Below, piece after piece: positions 1-29,735 of a DNA stretch of 29,735 nucleotides. The notes below the pieces were generated by a model, which searched no databases, was not told where the DNA came from, and saw only the letters and a program-made list of their open reading frames with translations. Source of the DNA: a virus; the IMG/VR virus record IMGVR_UViG_3300042546_000064, positions 1-29,735 of that record; one strand, written 5' to 3'. The translations under genes and the position numbers were made by a program. Position 1 is the stretch's first letter. Every line of letters begins with the position of its first letter.

Positions 1-127
1 ATTGGCTCAGGGTGTTCTTCTTTCTCTTTCTTAGATAAATCATTATAGTAGTTGAACACTTCCATCTGATCTGAGTATCTTTTTATTTCTTTAAAGTTCA
101 AGACATTCAAAGGCTTAATGATATTGT
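1..127. repeat. Terminal direct repeat, left copy
   Basis: Bases 1-127 are identical to 29609-29735. The repeat lies inside the primase gene, and joining the two copies keeps one open frame. An overlap of exactly 127 bases is what a k=127 de Bruijn assembler leaves on a circular or circularly permuted molecule, so it is more likely an assembly overlap than a biological terminal repeat. Unit length is 29,608 bp. Confidence 0.95.
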
Positions 128-1319
128 CGATACTTGGAGTCTTACCTATACCAGCTCTACCTACTACAGCTAACCAAATTACACCAGGCTCAGTCCATCC
201 TTTTTTAACTTCTATCTCATGAGTATTTCCAACACAAACAGATATTAACCAAAGTAAACTACAGCCCATGTAGTCAATATTAGCATCTAGCTTGTTGTTA
301 CATTCTAAGATGTAATGCTGTATCTCATCAGGAAAGATATCTAATGGAAAGTTGATTCCTGAGATAGGTAATGGTTTCTCAATCTTTGGCTTATTCTCTT
401 CAATTTCTTTCTTTCTTCTAGATCCAAATCCTTGCTCATAAAGGTCTTTAGTAGCTTCTTTAAAGTCACCATTGTGCATCTTGTAAGCATAAGCCACAAA
501 TGGACTTATTAGCTTCTCATGTGGATAGACTGTACCAGTAGAGAATAGATACATGCACCCACTATCACGAAAGACACTACCTGAATGAGCAGAAGTTGCT
601 CCATGTCTTTTGATTAGATAGTGATCTTTCTTTTGTCCATTAGCTGGAATAAAAAAGTCATCTTGAATAACTGACCAAATATCTGTTTTATCATTAAAAT
701 CTTGCCAAGGTGTTACCTCATCATCTGAGTAAATCTTTGGCTCTTTCTTTGGCTCTTCAGGAGCTTTCTCAATGTGATTGTAAGCTGAGGATAAATTCCA
801 AAGTGTCTGTCTATCTTCATCTGTAATAAATTCTAATTGAAAGTAAGACCTTGTATTGTCTAACTTTTTACCAGGATAAACAAAGACATAGCCACCAGTA
901 CCTCTAGTCTCAATTACAGCCTCTTTATGACCTTTTAACTTAGCTATCTTTGAGTTCCCTACTACTCTCTTAGACTTGTATAAAATGTGATAGCCACCAC
1001 TTTTAGTTACATAGACAGAAAACTTTGACTCAAAGTCTAAGATGTTATCTTTAAGAGTCTGATAGTATTCTTTCCAAAACTGGTCCTTCTCAAGTTGTGT
1101 TGAGAATACCTTAGTGTCAACATCAATGACCTCTAATGATTCAAAGCCAGTTACTATTCCTATACCTTTTGTAGACGGCTTTCTTAAGTTGATTAGGAAT
1201 TGTTCTTCAGTTAGTTTTGTTGATTGACATTCTTTCCATGTATGATTAGGGATTTTATCATCCCCTATAGTTATAACTGAAAAGTAATCTAAAAAATTTA
1301 ATGCTTGTAGTTCTTCCAT
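1..1319 (-). CDS. Primase-polymerase/helicase, N-terminal part (continues at 29608)
   Basis: This is the first 439 codons of a 748-residue protein cut by the window edge; the rest is at 28681-29608. It probably primes and unwinds phage DNA. Residues about 45-160 look like an archaeo-eukaryotic Prim-Pol domain: the acidic motif VIDVDTK (D66, D68), SGGYH (H111), then IETRGTGGY (E137). A Walker A motif GRAGIGKT (residues 387-394) opens a DUF3987-type helicase region. The ATG at 1319 is chosen because it is the first in frame and the leader RNA ends there. It is the first gene behind the promoter at 1451-1480 and beside the putative origin. Family assignment is from motifs only, but all three Prim-Pol motifs are in order and correctly spaced. 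Confidence 0.9.
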   Translation of the reverse strand, partial: MEELQALNFLDYFSVITIGDDKIPNHTWKECQSTKLTEEQFLINLRKPSTKGIGIVTGFESLEVIDVDTKVFSTQLEKDQFWKEYYQTLKDNILDFESKFSVYVTKSGGYHILYKSKRVVGNSKIAKLKGHKEAVIETRGTGGYVFVYPGKKLDNTRSYFQLEFITDEDRQTLWNLSSAYNHIEKAPEEPKKEPKIYSDDEVTPWQDFNDKTDIWSVIQDDFFIPANGQKKDHYLIKRHGATSAHSGSVFRDSGCMYLFSTGTVYPHEKLISPFVAYAYKMHNGDFKEATKDLYEQGFGSRRKKEIEENKPKIEKPLPISGINFPLDIFPDEIQHYILECNNKLDANIDYMGCSLLWLISVCVGNTHEIEVKKGWTEPGVIWLAVVGRAGIGKTPSIDNIIKPLNVLNFKEIKRYSDQMEVFNYYNDLSKKEKEEHPEP

Positions 1320-1447
1320 TCCGCCCAATGTTGTTTAAAATAATAAAGCCCATTAATTTTAAGCTGGTGCGGAGCTGTCAAACTAATGAGCCTTAAATAA
1401 GTTCTTTGTGACTAACAAGTTGAATTCCGCACAATCAACTTTCACGT
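1320..1447 (-). ncRNA. Structured 5' leader of the primase mRNA (kissing-loop candidate)
   Basis: About 125 nt separate the promoter from the primase ATG with no ORF. On the minus strand hairpin H1 pairs 1441-1435 with 1423-1417 (AAGTTGA/TCAACTT); its 11-nt loop contains GTGCGGA. A 12-bp stem with two wobbles pairs 1395-1384 (TAAGGCTCATTA) with 1355-1344 (TAATGGGCTTTA). It encloses hairpin H2, AGCT-CCGCACC-AGCT (1376-1362). The H1 loop GTGCGG (1432-1427) is complementary to the H2 loop CCGCAC (1372-1367). GGGCGGA directly before the ATG could pair with the same TCCGC. Structure is derived by eye; a regulatory role is inferred. It matches no riboswitch class I know. Confidence 0.6.
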
Positions 1448-1450
1448 GTA

Positions 1451-1480
1451 CAAATATAGTAATTTTTCTTTAATTACAAA
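1451..1480 (-). promoter_or_regulatory. Bacteroidota-type promoter of the primase/replication operon
   Basis: On the minus strand the -33 element TTTG (1480-1477) lies 18 bp from the -7 box TATATTTG (1458-1451), matching the Bacteroidota consensus TTG-N19-TAnnTTTG. Transcription would start near 1447-1444, just before hairpin H1 of the leader. The extended box TATATTTGTAC is shared with two boxes at 4430-4437 and 4512-4519. Confidence 0.75.
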
Positions 1481-1483
1481 TTT

Positions 1484-1664
1484 ATTTTAGGTGTAAACTA
1501 CTGTAAAGTGACTTTACACCTGACTTTACAGTAACTTTGTAGTGTCTATAAGGGTTGTAGCCATTTTAGGTGTAAAGTTTACAGTAAAACTGATTTTAAA
1601 AAAATTTTTTAATTTATTTTTTTTTTTACCTACTGTAAAGTCACTTTACACTTTACACTTTACA
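1484..1664. other. Putative replication origin: TGTAAAG/CTTTACA iterons plus AT-rich tract
   Basis: The region has two 17-bp near-palindromes, TGTAAAGTGACTTTACA (1502-1518) and TGTAAAGTCACTTTACA (1634-1650), a shorter one TGTAAAGTTTACA (1571-1583), a single ACTTTACA (1523-1530), and CTTTACA three times in tandem at 7-bp period (1644-1664). ATTTTAGGTGTAAA occurs twice (1484-1497, 1563-1576). Between clusters lies an almost pure A/T tract (about 1585-1628), a good unwinding element. It sits between a DnaA-domain-IV-like gene and the primase promoter. Origin function is inferred; the clusters could also be operators. Confidence 0.65.
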
Positions 1665-2043
1665 CCACTCTTTCTAAGTATTGGTCATTAGCTATTCTCT
1701 CCTTAATTATCCTTAAATCTGTGGTGTTGTTGCAATTGATAACATCCTCAAAAATAGAGTACTTAGGTAGTTCAATTGGTGCTTCACCAGGATAGAGATA
1801 GTCCTTAATTGGTGCAATTATGTTATCATAAATCTTGTCACAATTTTGAAATTGATTGTCAACTTTTAGTCCATTAATGACAGTTGCATGGTGTTTGTCC
1901 ATCAATCTACCAATCTCTGACAGATTCATTCCTATTTTTTGTAGCTCAGAATAAACATAAGCTCTTTTGTAGATTAAGTCTCTATCTCTACAGCTGGTTG
2001 TCAGATCGTAAAGGTCAATCATGTATTTGATTTTTTCTATCAT
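1660..2043 (-). CDS. DnaA domain IV-like DNA-binding protein
   Basis: This 127-residue protein has a segment, LSEIGRLMDKHHATVINGL (residues 41-59), resembling the DnaA domain IV signature, in which EIGR is followed by a D/H-H-[AT]-T-V core. It lacks any AAA+ ATPase region, so it is a stand-alone binding domain. The C-terminal half is unassigned. The start overlaps the previous stop (ATGA), and the last codons run into the CTTTACA iterons. Position beside the iterons and just before the primase unit suggests it binds them as an initiator or autoregulator; this is inference. Real DnaA boxes (TTATCCACA) are not seen. Confidence 0.7.
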   Translation of the reverse strand: MIEKIKYMIDLYDLTTSCRDRDLIYKRAYVYSELQKIGMNLSEIGRLMDKHHATVINGLKVDNQFQNCDKIYDNIIAPIKDYLYPGEAPIELPKYSIFEDVINCNNTTDLRIIKERIANDQYLERVV

Positions 2044-2285
2044 GACAATTGTTTCTTAGAGTCAATATTCTTAAAAATGTCAGAGTCAGAGTCTATCCTT
2101 CCAGTAGCCTTGATAAAGTCTACCTCTAGCTTAGCTGAGTTGATGATAACAGATCCAATGGAGCTGATAGCCTTTGCCTTATCTACCTCTTCTTTAATCT
2201 GTTCATTACTTAAAGACTCATCATTAAGTCTTTCTAGTGCTGCAAACATGTGGTCACGTAGATCACTGATTTTGTTTCTTGCCAT
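2040..2285 (-). CDS. Conserved small phage protein, helical
   Basis: An 81-residue, soluble, mostly helical protein beginning MARNKISDLRDHMF, with an acidic/basic helix (residues 15-40) and the segment IINSAKLEVDFIKATG. I recall proteins of this form in many tailed phages, but know no function. Its start lies 23 nt inside the end of the HNH gene and its stop overlaps the next ATG (ATGA), so translation is probably coupled. The neighbouring HNH and DnaA-like genes suggest a DNA-metabolism role, which is only inference. Confidence 0.8.
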   Translation of the reverse strand: MARNKISDLRDHMFAALERLNDESLSNEQIKEEVDKAKAISSIGSVIINSAKLEVDFIKATGRIDSDSDIFKNIDSKKQLS

Positions 2286-28466: not shown

Positions 28467-28684
28467 ATTTCTAAGTATATCATTTGTAACAATAACTCTT
28501 TTAAACTTAGACATGGACTTAATGACTCTATATCTTCTCTTTCGGTCACAGTACCAAATGAGCCTTTAAAATTAGTAGTAAAGGACAATATAGTAAAGTG
28601 TCCATTGTACTTAAGGTTAGCTATTACACACACTGTAGACATCAACTCATTGACATCCATTTGTTCCATCATTTTTTTATTCAT
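28463..28684 (-). CDS. Hypothetical protein between primase and PP-loop gene
   Basis: 73 residues. Beta-rich centre (ANLKYNGHFTILSFTTNFKGSFGTV) and an ending LSLKELLLQMIYLEI. No family recognised. It overlaps both neighbours by four bases (ATGA), so it belongs to the primase operon. Confidence 0.7.
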   Translation of the reverse strand: MNKKMMEQMDVNELMSTVCVIANLKYNGHFTILSFTTNFKGSFGTVTEREDIESLSPCLSLKELLLQMIYLEI

Positions 28685-29735
28685 TTCTCTTCTATTTTTT
28701 TAATTAAATTTATTACTTGCTGTCTACTTATACCTAACTGCTCAGCTACTTTTGTTCTGTTAAAGTTACTATCTGACTTGTAGATAGATAACAATTTGTC
28801 ATAGGTAGTCTCAGCTCCTTTCATAGCTGATTTAATATCTTTCAATTCAGCTGCTTCAATCTTTATTTTTTTAGCATTCATGATAAAGTAGTTACTTAAC
28901 TTCTCAGCTTTAAGAATACTATCCTTAGATACTTCTAACACATTAACTTTCTCATCAAAATTGCTTGAGAATAAATGAATTAAAAGAGCAAATCTTGGGA
29001 TATAACTCTTTTGCTTAGGATACATAGACTTAAGATATTCATTCTCCTCATCATTGTTTTGCTCCTTAGTTATTCTGTTAAAGATTCGCTTCCATTCTTC
29101 TTTGGCTTCTTGTTTAAATTTAACTGTGTTAGTAATTATTTTACCATCATTATCTCTCTTAATGAATGCACTCTTTAAACCTTGATAAAATCTAGTGATA
29201 GTGTTGCTATACCACATGATATCAGCTATGTGCATTTCGTTCTCATTGTACTCCTCAACTTTTGCATCAGGAAAGCTCAATAACATTCTATCTAAGAAAC
29301 CATTGTCTTTATTCTCATCAGTTGCAAATTGATTAAAGATACTTGGCTGTATACCACCTAACACTGGTATAAATGGTCTCTCAATAAAAGATCCTTTCCT
29401 AGTCATTCTATTCACAGATACTGACTTGCTAGACCAACATGATAGCCAAAATTCCAAATCAGATCCAGCTCTATACTTATTCATATCTTTAAACCATCCA
29501 GCAAGCTCATCTTTAAATACTCCTACAGAATTATCTGACTCCTGGTGTAAGTCAACTAATGCCTCTAATGTAATATCATTAGCAATAAACTGAGTCTTCT
29601 TAGGTTTAATTGGCTCAGGGTGTTCTTCTTTCTCTTTCTTAGATAAATCATTATAGTAGTTGAACACTTCCATCTGATCTGAGTATCTTTTTATTTCTTT
29701 AAAGTTCAAGACATTCAAAGGCTTAATGATATTGT
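28681..29735 (-). CDS. Primase-polymerase/helicase, C-terminal part (starts at 1319 across the junction)
   Basis: The final 345 codons (residues 404-748) of the protein opened at 1319; 29608 continues at base 1. The apparent start near 29718 is only an in-frame TTG (residue 404). The part shows DUF3987 traits: VGVFKDELAGWFKDM (Walker B-like DE), FWLSCWSSKSVSVNRM, PVLGGIQPSIFNQF and GFLDRMLLSFP (an arginine in the sensor position). The last 30 residues form an HTH, NRTKVAEQLGISRQQVINLIKKI, likely for DNA binding. Stop overlaps the next ATG (ATGA). Confidence 0.92.
   Translation of the reverse strand, partial: NIIKPLNVLNFKEIKRYSDQMEVFNYYNDLSKKEKEEHPEPIKPKKTQFIANDITLEALVDLHQESDNSVGVFKDELAGWFKDMNKYRAGSDLEFWLSCWSSKSVSVNRMTRKGSFIERPFIPVLGGIQPSIFNQFATDENKDNGFLDRMLLSFPDAKVEEYNENEMHIADIMWYSNTITRFYQGLKSAFIKRDNDGKIITNTVKFKQEAKEEWKRIFNRITKEQNNDEENEYLKSMYPKQKSYIPRFALLIHLFSSNFDEKVNVLEVSKDSILKAEKLSNYFIMNAKKIKIEAAELKDIKSAMKGAETTYDKLLSIYKSDSNFNRTKVAEQLGISRQQVINLIKKIEEK
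29609..29735. repeat. Terminal direct repeat, right copy
   Basis: Identical to bases 1-127. Coordinates 29609-29735 equal 1-127 of the circle, so features here duplicate those at the left edge. Confidence 0.95.

Follow-up and report, generated by a model that had tools for sequence, protein, structure and literature searches.

A short leader RNA with two hairpins whose loops are complementary lies between the promoter and the first replication gene on the minus strand of the window, the whole 29,735-nucleotide stretch of viral DNA analysed here, and leaders of this architecture stand before replication operons, or before other early ones, in dozens of relatives, cultured Flavobacterium phages included. 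The loop of hairpin 1 carries a short word and the apical loop of hairpin 2 the matching antiword. Judged from the comparison of relatives, it is close to certain that the element is an RNA and that its base pairing is real; attenuation by the leader is likely, and a trans-acting role in immunity is a further step that we infer. Taken as a whole, the account in which the leader RNA attenuates the replication operon through loop-loop pairing, possibly with pairing in trans between leaders of the same word, has in our judgement an even chance of being right.

Read along the minus strand, the window contains a promoter, hairpin 1, the terminator-like hairpin 2, a U-rich tract and the sequence GGGCGGA-AUG that opens the primase-polymerase gene (Table 1). 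The original prediction had described two hairpins with complementary loops, a 12-bp stem enclosing the second, a GGGCGGA directly before the AUG repeating the core of the first loop and a leader that begins at the predicted transcription start. All of these elements were recovered, the promoter placing the start at the foot of hairpin 1. Hairpin 1 is 5′-terminal in the relatives too, and about 34 of 40 inspected leaders have a TAnnTTTG box, its end lying between 7 nt inside and 12 nt upstream of hairpin 1 and mostly 1-9 nt upstream. On the whole minus strand of the window GCGGAAU occurs only twice, in loop 1 and at the start codon. Hairpin 2, with an apical loop of 7 nt (CCGCACC), has the form of an intrinsic terminator, that is, a stable hairpin with a U-tract directly after it. 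This tract is interrupted in the window, which would count against attenuation there, and is an unbroken U-run in most other leaders. A generic terminator scan returned no site, because it admits loops of 3-8 nt only. The terminator-like character of hairpin 2, the hypervariability of the word, the exchange of the leader as a cassette and the lack of a third word copy in most relatives had all been overlooked in the original prediction; because hairpin 2 is terminator-like, control of transcription is the more general reading. Attenuation by a leader peptide was considered and rejected, the small ORF at 1445-1383 not being conserved in the relatives when inspected by eye.

Table 1. Features of the leader in the window, in order of transcription, and second leaders in related loci.
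Feature	Position	Strand	Description and basis
Bacteroidota-type promoter	1451..1480	(-)	TTTG 1480-1477, 18-nt spacer, TATATTTG 1458-1451; read from sequence
Hairpin 1 (sensing hairpin), predicted 5′ end	1408..1445	(-)	MFE fold; pair counts in 16 relatives
Hairpin 1 clamp	1445-1442 with 1411-1408	(-)	GUGA/UCAC; MFE fold
Hairpin 1 stem	1441-1435 with 1423-1417	(-)	AAGUUGA/UCAACUU; MFE fold
Word 1, loop of hairpin 1	1426..1432	(-)	GUGCGGA; complementary to antiword; compensatory changes in relatives
Hairpin 2, terminator-like	1344..1396	(-)	MFE fold
Hairpin 2 lower stem	1396-1384 with 1356-1344	(-)	12-13 bp; every position paired in 15 distinct relatives, G-U exchanges among them
Hairpin 2 apical stem	1376-1373 with 1365-1362	(-)	AGCU/AGCU, 4 bp; internal loop beneath
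Antiword, apical loop of hairpin 2	1367..1373	(-)	UCCGCAC; 7 bp with word 1, alternatively 5 contiguous bp with the start-site word
U-rich tract, immediately after hairpin 2	1332..1346	(-)	UUUAUUAUUUUAAAC; from sequence, intrinsic-terminator-like
Word 2, abutting the start codon	1320..1326	(-)	GGGCGGA; covaries with word 1 and antiword; AUG 1319-1317
Start of replication gene	3..1319	(-)	Primase-polymerase with DUF3987 helicase domain (Pfam PF09250, PF13148); C-terminal part at 28681-29718
Second leaders with other words	L133:8044-8125, L132:6583-6675, L224:5211-5295, L286:11671-11759		Before HNH/NUMOD4-like or GIY-YIG-like genes

In this phage record the minus strand carries nearly all larger genes. 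The two window ends divide the DUF3987 helicase part of the primase, the N-terminal half lying at 1-1319 and the C-terminal half at 28681-29718, which suggests a circularly permuted, nearly complete genome. Iteron-like TGTAAAG/TTTACA repeats (1490-1660, minus strand) lie between the leader promoter and a gene (1660-2043, minus strand) for a DnaA-domain-IV-like helix-turn-helix (PF08299, below the cut-off); the corresponding repeats of relatives use other words (TGTTACA, TGTGAAA). Repeats and protein are possibly a replication origin and its binder. An 81-aa ORF at 2040-2285 (minus strand) matches PHROG 2044, whose label "RNA polymerase beta subunit" is at odds with this size and looks wrong.

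On the sequence of the window alone, the case for a kissing loop is only moderate. The loop complementarity is equalled in 70 of 5000 dinucleotide shuffles and the fold z-score of the leader is -1.66, so that the complementarity, which the original prediction held to be unlikely by chance, is no more than moderately improbable when taken alone. It is the relatives that decide the case. The shuffles are what speaks for a chance match beside an ordinary terminator of the upstream gene, and we regard this explanation as practically negligible: it is refuted by the cognate/swapped and reversed-sequence controls, by the covariation of pairs and by the word changes in relatives described below, and the hairpin lies downstream of a promoter and not at a gene end.

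A primase-based scan of IMG/VR yielded 41 relatives. Among primases 92-99% identical to that of the window two leader alleles were found, GUGCGG/CCGCAC/GGGCGG and AUGCAG/CUGCAU/AUGCAG (loop 1/loop 2/start-site copy), in which all three sites change jointly. The pairing of the antiword with loop 1 and that with the start site each contain two pairs with double changes, and both exceeded all 500 shuffles in covariation score and percentage paired, a count that is not a probability since the sequences are related. The arms of hairpin 1 are not alignable across the alleles by MAFFT, and covariation within this hairpin was judged by eye and with the detector described below. Relatives in which complementarity is lost from an otherwise conserved leader, named in the original prediction as its refutation, were sought and found in a weak form only: in L008 and L022 loop 1 has become GGGCGGA, which retains 5 contiguous bp with the antiword.

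The lower stem of hairpin 2 varies among the relatives through G-U exchanges, as expected of an RNA rather than a DNA element. The DNA pattern of this stem also led to the same leader before other genes and with new words, as GUUCGG/CCGAAC/GUUCGGGA-AUG in L051 and GUUGCAG/CUGCAAC/GUUGCAG-AUG in L052 and L057. An origin or primase recognition site, with the hairpins formed in single-stranded DNA, would fit the neighbourhood of iteron-like repeats, a DnaA-domain-IV-like gene and primase. We consider it very improbable, given the G-U exchanges, a polarity fixed with the promoter and the U-tract, and the presence of leaders upstream of endonuclease genes at a distance from the origin.

Remote primase relatives (53-72% identical, from a profile scan) share the plan and carry other words, among them the word/antiword pairs GAUACCAC/GUGGUAUC, GCCUGGAA/UUCCAGGC, GGGUGAGA/UCUCACCC and UGCACUAC/GUAGUGCA. 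Pairing specificity was assayed in 24 leaders with different words, the representatives being picked after the words were seen, one per word, and the terminator blind to complementarity. Cognate pairs reached a mean score of 18.75 and 7.3 bp, each with at least 6 bp, as compared to 11.9 and 5.0 bp for the 552 swapped pairs, and the best of 20,000 partner permutations scored 14.3. A detector combining leader, promoter box and downstream ORF matched 77 times in 562 kb of related loci; the reversed sequences gave 1 match and the antisense strand none. The 20 of 85 loci in which it found no match represent contig ends, mismatched leaders (e.g. L239/L241) or operons starting elsewhere. No clear leader was seen at the primase genes of Cellulophaga phages, Polaribacter phages or the Manatee Spring record L140, and a DNA similarity search of phage records with the leader gave short chance matches only. 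The covariation check in relatives, with compensatory changes over many words, strongly supports the kissing loop proposed originally.

Word and antiword fill their loops, which have median sizes of 7.5 nt in hairpin 1 and 7 nt in hairpin 2, and the words are 58% G+C as against 31% in their loci. Hairpin 2 usually has a purine-rich internal loop below an apical stem of 3-4 bp. Loop sizes and internal loop together give the leader the shape of natural kissing hairpins. For kissing antisense regulators it has been proposed that flexible interior loops beneath the apical stem are a general principle of their design (PMC4878617). The internal loop is often AGUA opposite GAA, the loop-E (bulged-G) consensus (L049, L051, L092, L105, L129), and is perhaps a fixed bend or a protein site.

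The main rival to attenuation is a structural or protein-binding role exerted in cis only, in which the kissing loop joins the hairpins and either protects the 5′ end of the early mRNA or shapes a site for a phage or host protein, such as a NusG-paralogue antiterminator or a Rop-like kissing-loop binder, the words being free to drift as long as they match. Geometry, 5′-terminal position and the purine-rich, often loop-E-like internal loop all suit a fixed three-dimensional fold, and it is complementarity alone, and no particular word, that is conserved. Such a role has no need of a U-tract beside the hairpin, and it leaves unexplained both the third word at the AUG and the wholesale promoter-to-AUG replacement between near-identical phages. 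We hold it to be a serious but minority possibility, at somewhat over a quarter of the weight.

The detector recorded 46 word strings in 85 non-redundant leaders, a count that depends on the detector and includes overlapping strings (e.g. GGTCAG, CTGGTCAGAG and TCGGTCAG); about 40 truly different words is our estimate. Words differ in 40 of the 79 pairs whose downstream proteins are at least 80% identical. The phages L224 and L227 are 94% identical in the gene and 90% upstream of the leader, and only about 45-48% in the leader core blocks, the drop in identity spanning exactly the stretch from the -7 box to the AUG. The converse is found between the window and L020, where the leader is 98% identical and the gene 76% (nucleotide). 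Together these cases indicate that the leader moves as a unit with the promoter and the start codon as its ends, and that it is swapped as a cassette between near-identical phages. This hypervariability can also stem from compensatory drift and recombination, with no need of action in trans.

Cultured carriers display the same variation. The closest found are Flavobacterium phages: mumin6-1 and mymlan6-1 have the word GTGGAACG before a helicase+VirE operon, filifjonk9-1, lillamy9-2 and tooticki6-1 have GTGAGACG before a TOPRIM primase operon, and morran9-1 has GTGAGAAG. The leaders of mumin6-1 (GTGGAACG/CGTTCCAC) and filifjonk9-1 (GTGAGACG/CGTCTCAC) are nearly identical, with two compensating base differences each in word and antiword. 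Within Muminvirus (L287/L290 versus L286) whole replication modules have been exchanged, TOPRIM primase against helicase+VirE, while the leader stayed nearly the same and its word changes are compensated. Lytic growth is described for the Mumin-type isolates (PMC7077304), so that immunity as known from lysogens does not apply to them directly. A prophage origin of the carriers was considered and seems improbable, the check having returned no more than one MAG contig from GTDB genomes and, in 299 Bacteroidota genomes, four weak helicase matches. A leader with primase (L139:3051-3141) was seen on a contig of a MAG named 'proteobacterium', probably a misbinned Bacteroidota phage contig.

The operons opened by the leader are unrelated in their replication genes, which are prim-pol/DUF3987 in the window, a VirE-like helicase in L049 and L051 that resembles a protein annotated 'vire al domain', and, in L057, a DnaD-like loader with a helicase-like gene behind it. 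Where the primase is not first in its operon, the leader sits before the operon's first gene. In some phages a second leader with a different word is present, often before an HNH/NUMOD4-like or GIY-YIG-like endonuclease gene, the gene kinds being judged from their sequences. The leader is accordingly not confined to replication genes, which would count against a role specific to replication. One word of these second leaders, GTCGTCG, is shared by unrelated phages.

The words with a third copy no more than about 15 nt from the AUG are GUGCGGA, AUGCAG, GUUCGG, AAGUGGAA, GGGCAU, ACGGUCA, ACAACCG and GUUGCAG. Third-copy matches of at least 6 nt occur for 5 of the 46 words, as compared to 0.04 expected from swapped words, and the copy is missing from most other leaders. 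The original prediction took the leader to be a switch in which the antiword pairs with either loop 1 or the start site. For the subclass of the window, in which the three sites change together, and for the six further words with a third copy, this arrangement is a true feature, with the start-site helix in what would be direct competition with the kissing helix for the antiword. As the core of the leader it did not stand, because the third copy is absent from most relatives and the switch is therefore an add-on. A translation switch acting purely in cis, the antiword resting on loop 1 with the start codon free or on the start-site word with the codon covered, and a factor or the timing of transcription deciding between the two states, would draw on the triple covariation in the clade of the window and on the third copies of the six further words. 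The many leaders lacking that copy speak against such a core function, and in the window the start-site helix (5 contiguous bp) is weaker than the kissing helix (7 bp). We consider this switch, taken as the main function, rather improbable.

We return to attenuation. Structure, loop-loop pairing, position between promoter and replication or early genes, hypervariability with exchange, and the covarying third word all come from sequence comparison. Beyond this we infer a working terminator, an effect of pairing on termination, the direction of that effect and action in trans. Transcription would start at hairpin 1, whose loop would display the word of 6-8 nt, and some 40 nt further on the polymerase would make the terminator-like hairpin with the antiword in its apical loop. 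Kissing of the two loops may then set how frequently transcription ends at the U-tract, with a leader RNA of some 100 nt as the product, or continues into the replication genes. A strong promoter with a terminator-like hairpin within about 100 nt of it, ahead of essential genes, would be meaningful only where termination is regulated or the terminated RNA has a task, and an attenuator governed by loop-loop pairing is the simplest reading. Because word and antiword sit in separate loops, pairing between two leader RNAs is possible, and leaders from sister copies or co-infecting phages could base-pair in trans with a same-word leader that is still being transcribed. The phage would in this way sense its own amount and dampen its replication genes, as copy control or as exclusion of same-word phages; the amount of leader RNA as a copy measure would explain both the diversification of words and the swapping of whole leaders. 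In the subclass of the window the word copy at the AUG could let the antiword cover the start codon as well, adding a translational arm. The route from pairing to changed termination is not evident, since kissing and the terminator hairpin are topologically compatible, and MFE folds of the leaders revealed no alternative stem or separate antiterminator. A more far-reaching and clearly more tentative reading, to which we give less than a third of the weight, is a widespread and hitherto undescribed RNA barcode system of Bacteroidota phages with one exchangeable kissing code per replication or early operon, in which the same code would repress in trans and different codes would coexist. Codes would then diversify and be swapped as cassettes under negative frequency-dependent selection.

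Loop-loop recognition is well known from the kissing-loop antisense RNAs of ColE1 (RNAI/RNAII) and R1 (CopA/CopT), and the C4 antisense RNA of P1/P7 (Rfam RF01695) is made from a leader and acts on the mRNA downstream. The present leader resembles C4 as a possible leader-derived antisense on downstream mRNA, and differs in having no sequence or covariance-model match to it. With pT181-type attenuators it would share a promoter-proximal attenuator of a replication gene. It differs from the pT181, ColE1 and R1 systems in that the partner loop lies in the same transcript. Neither an opposite-strand countertranscript nor an antiterminator was found, as judged from the MFE folds and from inspection by eye of the plus strand opposite the leader, where no TAnnTTTG box was seen. 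The Rfam 15 covariance models gave no match at gathering score in the window or in 16 related loci, and the best hit of a permissive Rfam search with the leader was BTnc060 (19.4 bits, cut-off 228.9).

A precedent is the CI RNA of P4, which by pairing with seqA upstream and seqC downstream brings transcription to an end ahead of the replication genes (PMC4825925). Both are untranslated leaders before a primase/helicase operon, premature termination is the proposed output here also, and in the subclass of the window the antiword is complementary to an upstream and a downstream copy. The differences are that two kissing hairpin loops carry word 1 and antiword here, the latter in the apical loop that belongs to the terminator itself, that the third copy is mostly absent, that the hosts are Bacteroidota, that the known isolates are described as lytic and that Rfam gives no match. 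Kissing antisense RNAs resemble the leader in their loop-loop recognition, in a loop size near 7 nt, in the interior loops beneath the apical stem and in a loop specificity that can be changed freely (PMC4878617). In extrachromosomal mycobacteriophage prophages a non-coding RNA is tied to replication and incompatibility and is required for replication initiation (PMC7157519), a likeness in that an RNA is linked to phage replication; the parts of that account available to us describe no kissing terminator leader. No description of the present leader was found in the open-access papers searched. It would work like known kissing-loop attenuators and P4 immunity, and we assign it to neither, because trans action and processing are hypothetical and a countertranscript was not found.

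These observations suggest a sequence-specific RNA switch on phage replication, and perhaps an immunity or compatibility tag. If this is true, many uncultured and cultured Bacteroidota phages would control their replication genes by a small RNA with a specificity of 6-8 freely changeable bases, and would offer dozens of attenuators that differ from one another, a library supplied by nature, for a phylum important in gut and aquatic habitats. They would also provide a testable model of how lytic phages compete or coexist by means of RNA; cultured phages that differ in their words and share the same two Flavobacterium strains as hosts exist already.
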